Assembly: GCA_947165145.1 (NCBI GenBank)
Contig: CAMUZG010000020.1
Coordinates: forward strand, 1 to 44,940
Reading direction: 5' to 3'
DNA: 44,940 nt
From: an uncultured Selenomonadales bacterium
GTDB lineage: Bacteria; Bacillota; Negativicutes; Selenomonadales; Selenomonadaceae
In this document: piece after piece, positions 11,770 through 13,501 of the stretch
How positions within the stretch are numbered: the stretch's first letter is position 1
Layout of the letters: the number at the start of each line of letters is the position of its first letter
Translations under genes and position numbers: made by a program
The notes under the pieces: model-generated
Database searches by the model: none
Seen by the model: only the letters and a program-made list of their open reading frames with translations
Told to the model about the DNA's origin: nothing

Positions 11770-12786
11770 ATGGAAAAAACTTTACGCGAAATAGCCGAAA
11801 TCCTCGGCGGTGAAGTCGCGGGCGACGACTCAATCAAAGTCAGCGGGCTATCAAATATTACAATGGCTCGTGCGGGCGATTTGATTTTCGCCGTGCCACC
11901 GCATCTTGACGAGGCAAAAATTTCTGCGGCGACTGCCGTTTTAATTCCGCTTGACACGTGCAACTTCCCGAAGCCAGCGATTAAAGTTGTCGACCCGCGT
12001 GCCGCCTTTGCCAAATTGCTTGAACTTTTCACGCCGAAAATTGAAATTCCCGTTGAAATCAGCGACAAAGCGTACATCGGCAAGGACGTGAAAATTTCCG
12101 ACGACGTGACGATTATGCCGTTTGCTGTCGTTGATGACGGCGCACAAATCGGACGCGGCGCAGTAATTTATCCGCACGTTTACATCGGGCAACACGTTTC
12201 AATCGGCGAAGACACCGTAATTTATTCAAGCGTGACCGTTCGCGAATTCTGCAAAATCGGCAAGCGGTGCGTCATTCACAGTTCAGCGGTTATCGGCTCG
12301 GACGGCTTCGGATTCACCACGGCGAACGGCGTGCACACGAAAGTTCCCCAGGTCGGCAACGTGATTGTTGAAGACGACGTTGAAATCGGCGCACACGTCG
12401 GCATTGATAGGGCGGCAATGGGCTCGACGATTATCGGGCACGGCACGAAGATTGATAACCTCGTTCACATTGCGCACAACTGCAAAATCGGCGCGAACTG
12501 CTTAATCGTGGCACAGACGGGAATTTCGGGCTCGACGATTGTCGGCGACAACGTGACTTTCGGCGGACAAGTCGGCACGGTCGGGCACATCACCATCGGT
12601 AGCAATTCGGTTTACGCGGCGCGTTCGGGTATCTCGAAAAACATGCCGGAAGGATTTTTCGGCGCAGGTTTCCCGATTCAATCTCACAACGATTGGCTTA
12701 GACATCAAGCGGCGTTGAAAAAAATTCCCGAGCTCTTGGAAAAAGTTCGTCGCCTTGAACGTGAGCTTGACGCTTTGAAAAGTTAA
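11770..12786 (+). CDS. lpxD: UDP-3-O-acylglucosamine N-acyltransferase LpxD
   Basis: Third enzyme of lipid A synthesis: adds a second hydroxyacyl chain from acyl carrier protein to the 2-amino group of UDP-3-O-acyl-glucosamine. The 338-residue length is normal. The N-terminal domain (1-95) is followed by a left-handed beta-helix of hexapeptide repeats (about 97-290, with many IGxxxxI units). The catalytic histidine lies in LVHIAHN (residues 231-237). The C-terminal helix (LEKVRRLERELDALKS) caps the trimer. Its presence shows that the organism makes lipopolysaccharide. It is the last gene of the OmpH cluster; no clear terminator follows before the promoter at 12791. Confidence 0.96.
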   Translation: MEKTLREIAEILGGEVAGDDSIKVSGLSNITMARAGDLIFAVPPHLDEAKISAATAVLIPLDTCNFPKPAIKVVDPRAAFAKLLELFTPKIEIPVEISDKAYIGKDVKISDDVTIMPFAVVDDGAQIGRGAVIYPHVYIGQHVSIGEDTVIYSSVTVREFCKIGKRCVIHSSAVIGSDGFGFTTANGVHTKVPQVGNVIVEDDVEIGAHVGIDRAAMGSTIIGHGTKIDNLVHIAHNCKIGANCLIVAQTGISGSTIVGDNVTFGGQVGTVGHITIGSNSVYAARSGISKNMPEGFFGAGFPIQSHNDWLRHQAALKKIPELLEKVRRLERELDALKS

Positions 12787-12790
12787 CGGC

Positions 12791-12819
12791 TTGATTTTTT
12801 TTGCCGCGACGATTATAAT
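12791..12819 (+). promoter_or_regulatory. Promoter for a plus-strand RNA antisense to a small ORF
   Basis: TTGATT (12791-12796), 17-base spacer, TATAAT (12814-12819). No plus-strand gene follows; the next strong plus-strand terminator is at 13109-13137. Confidence 0.72.
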
Positions 12820-12832
12820 TTTCTCGACAAAG

Positions 12833-12861
12833 AAAAAAGCGTCACCGCAAATGCAGGACGC
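12833..12861 (-). terminator. Terminator of the small hydrophobic peptide transcript
   Basis: Minus strand: GCGTC (12861-12857) pairs with GACGC (12843-12839), followed by six Ts (12838-12833). It closes the minus-strand unit that starts at the promoter at 13111-13084. Confidence 0.65.
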
Positions 12862-12940
12862 CGTGCTTGACTAAGCGGTTTAGCCCTCATTTATGTCTAT
12901 AAAAGAGCAAAGAATTTTAGGTCGTCTCAGCGTGTCAGGC

Positions 12941-13018
12941 TTAGGCGGCCGTTTCTGTGAGTATCAAGAGGATAATAATCGTCAAGATAACCACACGAAC
13001 GATGATTTTGAACATCAT
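12941..13018 (-). CDS. Putative type I toxin-like small membrane peptide (25 residues)
   Basis: The ORF encodes MMFKIIVRVVILTIIILLILTETAA: a short basic start, one hydrophobic membrane-spanning stretch rich in Ile/Leu/Val, and a short polar tail. This is the general form of type I toxin peptides. AAGGGGG lies seven bases before ATG 13018 and is partly buried in a hairpin (CGCCC at 13041-13037 with GGGCG at 13027-13023). The frame stays open upstream to another ATG (13066), which lacks a ribosome site. It has its own promoter (13084-13111) and terminator (12833-12861), and a predicted antisense RNA covers all of it. I do not recognise the peptide family; function is inferred from architecture. 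Confidence 0.5.
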   Translation of the reverse strand: MMFKIIVRVVILTIIILLILTETAA

Positions 13019-13083
13019 CTGTCGCCCCCTTTCTGAGGGCGTTGGTCTTAACCGCCTGCCGTTCATGGCGCAAGCACACGAAC

Positions 13084-13111
13084 ATTTTAGCACGAACGAA
13101 ATTTTTTTCAA
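13084..13111 (-). promoter_or_regulatory. Promoter for the small hydrophobic peptide gene
   Basis: Minus strand: TTGAAA (13111-13106), 16-base spacer, TAAAAT (13089-13084). The -35 box overlaps the terminator of the opposing RNA. The predicted leader is about 60 bases and contains the ribosome-site hairpin. Confidence 0.65.
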
Positions 13112-13137
13112 GCCGAGCGATTGGCTTGTTTTTTTTT
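13109..13137 (+). terminator. Strong Rho-independent terminator of the antisense RNA
   Basis: CAAGCC (13109-13114) pairs with GGCTTG (13123-13128) around an 8-base loop, followed by nine Ts (13129-13137). There is no plus-strand coding gene directly before it, which points to a non-coding transcript. Confidence 0.85.
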
Positions 13138-13176
13138 GCCGTCGGTATTGAATCAGTTTGAATGCAACGCGGCGTA

Positions 13177-13204
13177 TTGACAAAGTATCTTTCGGGTGTA
13201 GAAT
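13177..13204 (+). promoter_or_regulatory. Promoter of the flagellar operon
   Basis: TTGACA (13177-13182), 16-base spacer, TAGAAT (13199-13204), about 97 bases before flbD. It has the housekeeping type of boxes; no sigma-28 or sigma-54 boxes were seen. Confidence 0.72.
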
Positions 13205-13300
13205 AATCGTGCGAAAATTTTTGATTTGCCACTGAAAGGGATTTGAAAGTTTGCGGCGAAAAATTTCACAGCAAAACGCACTGATACAGGAGGTCAACTC

Positions 13301-13501
13301 ATGATTAAGCTTACGAAGTTCAACTCGGACTCGAACAAGCGCGGCGAATTCATTCTCAACGCGGAACTGATTCAAACAATCGAGTCGACGCCGGACACCG
13401 TCATCACGCTGGTGAACGAGAAGAAGTTCATCGTCGAAGAAGCCGCTGAAGAGGTCGTGCGTCGCGTGATGAAATATCGCCGCGCCCTGAAACAACTGTA
13501 A
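13301..13501 (+). CDS. flbD: Flagellar FlbD family protein
   Basis: A 66-residue protein of the small FlbD (SwrD) family found at the head of Firmicutes-type fla/che operons; in Bacillus the homologue raises flagellar power. Typical features: MIKLTKFNS opening, LNAELIQTIESTPDTVITLVNEKKFIV core, and a helical C-terminus (VVRRVMKYRRAL). AGGAGG lies eight bases before ATG. It is the first gene of the flagellar operon, 18 bases before fliL. Confidence 0.88.
   Translation: MIKLTKFNSDSNKRGEFILNAELIQTIESTPDTVITLVNEKKFIVEEAAEEVVRRVMKYRRALKQL

Follow-up and report, generated by a model that had tools for sequence, protein, structure and literature searches.

A probable multicopy type I toxin-antitoxin-like family, apparently restricted to Quinella, with covariation-supported pairing between the ends of its peptide mRNA

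The ends of the hok mRNA pair with each other, and ibs/Sib modules occur in several copies per genome, with an antisense RNA that spans the ORF and with models in both the Pfam and the Rfam library. Toxin production in hok/Sok is described as being under the control of mRNA folding and an antisense RNA, with 3'-end processing and refolding of the transcript (PMC8309996, PMC6733600). Hok has 52 residues, HokB contains three cysteines, IbsC has 19 residues and the toxic AapA1 peptide ends at residue 30; known membrane-acting type I toxins are described as small and hydrophobic, with cationic C-terminal residues common among them (PMC8309996). For AapA3, long-distance pairing is reported to hide the Shine-Dalgarno sequence, which 3' trimming then exposes (PMC6733600). 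Type I modules are considered hard to predict, their discovery having leaned on likeness to those already known, and a recent module, msoT1/msoA1 of Microcystis, was proposed as novel (PMC12390103).

The locus described herein (Table 1) lies in a window of 44,940 nucleotides (contig CAMUZG010000020.1) and is, in our judgement, probably one copy of a multicopy, genus-restricted Quinella family resembling type I toxin-antitoxin modules. A preliminary description had proposed a minus-strand ORF of 25 residues with its own promoter and terminator, faced by a plus-strand unit devoid of coding genes. Translation bears out the ORF, the product being short and hydrophobic with Lys and Arg near its N-terminus, and a scan of the window recovered both promoters and the plus-strand terminator where they had been placed. 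The minus-strand terminator was missed by both terminator scans (of the window stretch and of the family copies); despite a bulge in its stem, it does form in the predicted fold. Between 12500 and 13500 there are 3 promoter-like sites, versus 0.7 ± 1.1 in shuffled sequence, and 2 terminator-like sites, a number that does not exceed the shuffles (2.2 ± 1.5), such that the window by itself simply hints at two transcription units.

Table 1. Coordinates of the features of the locus in the window.
Feature	Position	Strand	Detail
Peptide ORF, 25 residues	12941..13018	minus	first ATG 13018, second ATG directly after; translation MMFKIIVRVVILTIIILLILTETAA
Peptide mRNA promoter (predicted)	13084..13111	minus	TTGAAA-16-TAAAAT, TG ahead of second hexamer
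Peptide mRNA (predicted), ~245 nt	12833..13077	minus	ends inferred from promoter and terminator
Peptide mRNA intrinsic terminator (predicted)	12833..12861	minus	bulged stem and T-run
5' arm A, long-distance pairing	13071..13077	minus	GUGCUUG
3' arm A	12863..12869	minus	CAAGCAC
5' arm B	13050..13057	minus	AGGCGGUU
3' arm B	12873..12880	minus	AACCGCUU
Anti-Shine-Dalgarno strand	13035..13040	minus	GCCCUC; alternative partners: ribosome site or 3' arm C
Ribosome-site strand, local hairpin	13024..13029	minus	GGGGGC; Shine-Dalgarno region AGAAAGGGGG
3' arm C	12883..12888	minus	GAGGGC, perfect complement of anti-Shine-Dalgarno strand
Stop-codon hairpin place	12920..12952	minus	last codons and stop ACRGCCGCCTAA nearly invariant, pair downstream
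Antisense RNA promoter (predicted)	12791..12819	plus	TTGATT-17-TATAAT
Antisense RNA (predicted), ~310 nt	12826..13137	plus	covers whole peptide mRNA
Antisense RNA terminator	13109..13137	plus	stem 13109-13128 and T-run; stem overlaps peptide-promoter -35 hexamer

The mRNA itself (13078-12830) is predicted to fold at -88.7 kcal/mol, compared to a shuffle mean of -65.1 (z -4.6), with 0 of 200 shuffles as stable. In this fold GGGGGC of the ribosome-site strand pairs with the GCCCUC just upstream, in keeping with the earlier proposal that the ribosome site sits inside a hairpin; arm C is not paired with the anti-Shine-Dalgarno strand, and the stop-codon hairpin is weaker in the window copy than in the family. 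The preceding gene is lpxD (TIGR01853, 352 bits), and beyond the locus lie fliM (TIGR01397, 340 bits) and a fliL-like gene (31 bits against a cut-off of 140), as well as a 66-residue ORF at 13301 that has no NCBIfam match. A strong promoter-like site on the plus strand (13177-13204, TTGACA-16-TAGAAT, 11 of 12 matches) precedes this ORF and the flagellar genes.

Copies of the locus are numerous. At the DNA level, positions 12770-13160 have matches in 16 out of 41 related genomes, each of them a member of the same genus; the window's own genome is among these and carries a second copy, matching at 68% over nearly the whole of that stretch. The peptide homologue search proposed in the preliminary description, run with a single peptide at a loose limit of E 1, returned 122 places in 43 of the 66 genomes of the genus; 119 were accepted by eye on the ORF and its surrounding sequence, and three were dropped as not being clean copies (G065:C14, G050:C100:9661 and G054:C191). 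Partial peptide matches at G054:C191:15822-15872 and G050:C100:9658-9717 resemble incomplete copies, such as decaying modules might leave. A profile built from 41 peptides matches 50 of the 66 genomes at E 0.1, leaving 16 with no match at that limit, and at each of 21 further profile places, inspected by eye, there is a family peptide with a G-rich ribosome site ahead of it. Accepted copies thus number at least 140 in 47 of the 66 Quinella genomes, at 1 to 8 per genome with copies, a lower bound given that weaker or partial profile matches were left out. A profile match at E 0.1 is present in only 8 of the 14 genomes with a completeness of 90% or more and a contamination of 5% or less. The window's own genome carries four copies (on C20, the window; C3; C7; and C21). 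By eye, subfamilies of FKII, MRVIKF, KR-x-W and TNTAS type can be told apart, with about three of them represented in the window's own genome (L039, L189, L190) and further subfamily loci noted at L173, L179, L181-L183, L185 and L186.

Outside the genus the same profile finds nothing, whether in 123 genomes of other genera of the order (E 0.1) or in 314 genomes from 101 other genera of the class (E 0.01). A DNA pattern scanned across one genome per species for 84,980 species returned 38 stretches, the titles of which name Selenomonadales or Selenomonadaceae bacteria and, in one case, Quinella sp. 2Q5; where a source is named, it is goat, sheep, roe deer, red deer or water buffalo. Since the pattern matches only 41 of the 119 copies, this list is far from complete. 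The pattern had 0 matches in viral contigs, and searches of plasmids and phages with one family peptide came back empty at E 1. We infer Quinella to be the host genus of the family.

As regards genomic arrangement, 36 copies are arranged in 20 neighbouring pairs on the same strand, at distances of 336-516 nt; no pair in opposite orientation occurs at such a distance among the accepted copies. The family has no fixed neighbour gene: the nearest flanking ORFs of at least 90 codons (n = 222) fall into 105 clusters, the largest having 14 members from 8 genomes, and lpxD or fliL is the nearest flanking ORF of the window copy only, among 119 copies. This multicopy and tandem nature, the restriction to one genus and the 5'-3' mRNA pairing detailed below are all new relative to the preliminary description.

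Comparison among copies indicates that the peptide is under purifying selection. Family peptides are hydrophobic and 24-28 residues long, with no conserved cysteine, their commonest residues being M-x-K-I-I-I-R-V-x-x-L-T-G-x-I-L-L-x-L-[ST]-K-T-A-A. Across 115 different sequences pN/pS is 0.36 in frame, versus 0.96 and 2.0 in the other two sense frames and 0.81, 0.44 and 1.84 in the antisense frames, the value of 0.44 probably being an echo of the coding frame on the opposite strand. The ratio is 0.32 over the first 17 of 22 codons and rises to 0.78 in the last five, a part in which the nucleotides ACAGCCGCCTAAGC are constrained also as RNA. Homologous peptides with synonymous-biased changes, on which the preliminary description had made its reading depend, are therefore what the genus contains. 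As in type I modules, there is a short hydrophobic peptide gene with a ribosome site, selected as protein; size and hydrophobicity are shared with membrane-acting type I toxins, but the window peptide is without cationic C-terminal residues, which counts against the toxin reading.

The preliminary description had recognised no known family here, and library searches agree. None of six peptides reached the Pfam cut-off (best E 0.49) or had any NCBIfam match. Out of 41 peptides, two match one PHROG (best E 0.011) and single ones match two others, one matches Pfam at E 0.069, and none matches PADLOC; none of these matches is convincing. With Rfam, all matches in the window stretch 12500-13400 fall far below the gathering score (best sau-41, E 0.29; sok at E 4.5, with 12.5 bits against 59), and none reached that score in 7 further loci out of 192.

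Across the family, the transcription signals stand out from chance. Among 115 of the first 119 copies (those with enough flank, duplicates dropped), a sense promoter with at least 10 of 12 matches is present in 97 (shuffles, 2.8%), an antisense promoter of the same quality in 100 (2.5%) and a sense terminator in 97 (2.7%). As both promoters and the sense terminator are conserved far above shuffles, the anatomy of the locus is beyond chance, and these facing promoters, with the homologous peptides and their in-frame pN/pS, argue at the sequence level for the type I-like reading put forward earlier. Only 39 of 115 copies yielded an antisense terminator (shuffles, 3.2%), meaning that a discrete antisense RNA is not assured in every copy; a second search, near the promoter and with one mismatch allowed, found it in 28 of 114. 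Where this terminator is lacking, the antisense RNA may continue past the unit or have a more distant end, and could then double as the 5' leader of a neighbouring gene, tying the antitoxin to that neighbour's expression. It had also been suggested that each unit's promoter touches the terminator of the other; this holds in the window for the antisense stem and the -35 box of the peptide promoter, and family-wide the same overlap was counted in 24 of 114 copies (window included), which means that part of the family has its two units interlocked. In a scan run without a control, 59 of 103 copies (e.g., L014, L015, L064) had a plausible gene start with a ribosome site no more than 300 nt away on the antisense strand; five of these starts lie inside the unit and are likely spurious.

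The predicted pairing between the two mRNA ends is well supported. An alignment of 71 of the 103 non-redundant mRNAs (118 before thinning; 32, mainly divergent, left out, as was G073:C126, for which the upstream end is missing) led RNAalifold to predict 5'-end/3'-end pairing unprompted. Helices A and B comprise 14 pairs, with 96.8% of cells formed and 66 double-changed cells; shuffles give 20, none of 500 reaching the observed number, and sliding the arms gives 1-20. By way of example, one pair is U-A in 55 copies and C-G in 12, another is A-U in 34, U-A in 20 and unpaired in 14, and a third is U-A in 52 and C-G in 18. Two of the five measures taken are not above shuffles, namely the number of pairs with any double change (179 of 500 as high) and that of further pair types (449 of 500). 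Read on the peptide strand, the helices contain 74 G-U cells versus 8 A-C or C-A cells, an excess that speaks for the peptide mRNA, rather than the antisense RNA, being the folded strand, subject to the caveat that structure prediction had used the peptide strand.

The third helix brings the 3' end into contact with the translation signals. In 50 of 71 copies arm C and the anti-Shine-Dalgarno strand are perfect six-base complements (permuted mean 31, maximum 39, 300 permutations), while that strand shows no such excess with the ribosome site (5 copies of 71; permuted mean 6.9). It reads GCCCUC in 10 copies, 8 of which, the window's among them, have GAGGGC at the 3' end; the ribosome side remains a G run in all but one of the 10. 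The leader hairpin that the preliminary description had marked for covariance analysis, i.e., the anti-Shine-Dalgarno strand with the ribosome site, gives only z -2.5; duplex-energy z values for A, B, C and the stop-codon hairpin are -9.4, -5.4, -9.1 and -9.1, respectively. A held-out set of 53 mRNAs was made up of the 32 unaligned ones and 21 newly found copies; 4 were unplaced, the 5' arm not being located, and in the other 49 each of helices A, B and C is stronger than in all 200 permutations. The 21 new copies alone again beat every permutation for all three helices. With the relatedness of copies uncorrected in these permutations and shuffles, the compensatory changes in three helices make end-to-end pairing of the mRNA a well-supported prediction of the sequence comparison.

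Other candidate pairings fared differently. The Shine-Dalgarno region and the ORF give no covariation (z +2.3), and the Shine-Dalgarno region with the stretch past the stop codon gives a weak signal (z -2.6) that is absent for a shorter region (z +0.1). A 5' GGCGGUU arm and AGCCGCC at the ORF end would form a strong duplex of about -14 kcal/mol; this candidate was set aside for want of covariation support, with matched pairs no better than permuted ones (z +3.3) and both arms nearly invariant. Positions 12941-12952 of the minus strand, together with their family equivalents, are complementary to both the GGCGGUU arm and the downstream strand. The nucleotides of the last codons and stop could possibly serve as a transient folding partner, one beyond the reach of a covariation test.

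From the gene anatomy, the selection on the peptide, the conservation of both promoters and the end-to-end covariation, a model of transcription, translation, toxicity, antisense repression and switching can be proposed. The minus strand would yield a short mRNA for a hydrophobic peptide of 24-28 residues, presumably a single membrane helix acting as a membrane-active self-toxin. From the plus strand would come an antisense RNA covering the mRNA over its full length and presumably silencing it by duplex formation. The mRNA would also gate itself: a local hairpin could shut the ribosome site as soon as the mRNA is made, and once the 3' end is present three helices would join the mRNA ends, the third competing with the ribosome site for the anti-Shine-Dalgarno strand.

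As to which state opens the ribosome site, either arm C or the ribosome hairpin was forced in the folding of 69 of the 71 rows; the hairpin ensembles are favoured by an average of 1.4 kcal/mol, with arm C the more stable in 21 of the 69 copies. Forcing arm C leaves the ribosome site unpaired at 26%, and forcing the hairpin at 3%. Predicted closure by the anti-Shine-Dalgarno strand is 0.65 in the full-length mRNA versus 0.92 without the 3' arms, and upon 3' trimming it rises by over 0.1 in 35 of 71 copies and falls in 1. For the window copy RNAfold predicts a closed ribosome hairpin whatever the state, which, like the low unpaired fraction given below, speaks against a strong opening. Such modelling suggests, weakly and tentatively, that 3' trimming closes the ribosome site and that the switch opens in the full-length mRNA, i.e., opposite to AapA. 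Taken further, the 3' end may be a mimic of the mRNA's own Shine-Dalgarno sequence, drawing the anti-Shine-Dalgarno strand into the end-to-end helix once transcription is complete and thereby freeing the ribosome site, such that only intact full-length transcripts would be translated whereas nascent, trimmed or antisense-bound ones would stay shut; we regard this as a doubtful possibility, which if true would reverse the hok/AapA logic and amount to a transcript-integrity check on a toxin gene. Within the same type I reading, the hok/AapA logic itself, with end-to-end pairing silencing the full-length mRNA and 3' trimming activating it, is quite possible by analogy, if short of an even chance: the same kind of pairing is conserved in the Quinella family, the mechanism is that described for aapA3 (PMC6733600) and the ribosome site is still predicted to be unpaired at only 10% in the full-length mRNA, with 4% in the trimmed form. 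Set against it are the rise in closure upon trimming and the choice of partner, since the 3' arm here pairs with the anti-Shine-Dalgarno strand and not with the Shine-Dalgarno sequence itself.

The same anatomy might instead serve a peptide that is no toxin, e.g., a small regulatory or stress membrane protein under antisense-RNA and mRNA-folding control. Purifying selection fits any functional peptide and toxicity is putative; nonetheless, copy number ranges from 1 to 8, tandem arrays occur and 16 of 66 genomes, some nearly complete, have no match. Variable copy number, tandem arrays and patchy absence are more usual in toxin-antitoxin modules than in housekeeping peptides, and we thus hold a non-toxin function to be unlikely, though to be kept in mind. 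A leader peptide or attenuator of the neighbouring operon would account for a short ORF with hairpins and a terminator directly downstream, and the antisense-strand gene starts from the uncontrolled scan would suit it as well; neighbours that vary from copy to copy, tandem copies and a unit's own terminator at the end of most copies speak against this reading, which was rejected on the first two counts and is very improbable. More improbable again is a dispersed repeat of REP-like or MITE-like character without gene function, for which the many copies and sites, the tandem repeats and the strong secondary structure might be cited. In-frame selection contradicts it, and the conserved promoters, the compensatory changes with G-U pairs on one strand and the reading frames accepted at 119 of the first 122 places all point away from it. 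A type I toxin-antitoxin-like module thus remains the reading that we prefer.

If so, the family would be a common small-gene family of an uncultured rumen bacterium, missed by the libraries searched despite at least 140 copies in one genus. As a natural alignment of a toxin-type mRNA carrying a long-distance switch it is unusually deep, and it makes the gating of toxin translation by mRNA ends directly testable. Quinella is described as a rumen bacterium without cultures (PMC9585023), and the main text of that paper contains the terms toxin, antisense and small RNA 0 times each. Literature searches on type I toxin-antitoxin systems in Negativicutes, Quinella or the rumen, and on Selenomonas antisense RNA, brought up nothing on a Quinella module, and the family is apparently undescribed.

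Ultimately, aapA/IsoA of Helicobacter pylori and its relatives is among the known systems closest to the Quinella family, a likeness of described architecture. Common to both are several chromosomal copies, a small peptide and a cis antisense unit (predicted here). We know of no covarying 5'-3' mRNA pairing in ibs of the kind seen in the Quinella family; ibs/Sib is similar in its very short peptide, yet the Quinella family has no Rfam match (window stretch and 7 loci) and no convincing Pfam match (6 and 41 peptides). The msoT1/msoA1 module belongs to another phylum and was tested in E. coli, and the main text of its report uses the term long-distance 0 times (PMC12390103). Likeness to hok/Sok lies in control by mRNA folding and antisense RNA, as proposed for the Quinella family, whereas the toxin of about 50 residues with cysteines has no counterpart among peptides of 24-28 residues lacking a conserved cysteine. 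With aapA the family further shares 5'-3' long-distance pairing of the mRNA and Shine-Dalgarno hairpins (PMC6733600), the former predicted and covarying in Quinella, the latter predicted. Differences lie in the antisense unit, predicted to run end to end over ~310 nt compared to 80 nt for IsoA3 (PMC6733600), and in the pairing, for which the Quinella 3' arm takes the anti-Shine-Dalgarno strand while that of aapA takes the Shine-Dalgarno sequence; by predicted thermodynamics, 3' trimming would not open the Shine-Dalgarno sequence in the Quinella family as it does in aapA. In outline, then, the family resembles hok and aapA, a likeness that falls short of membership in either.
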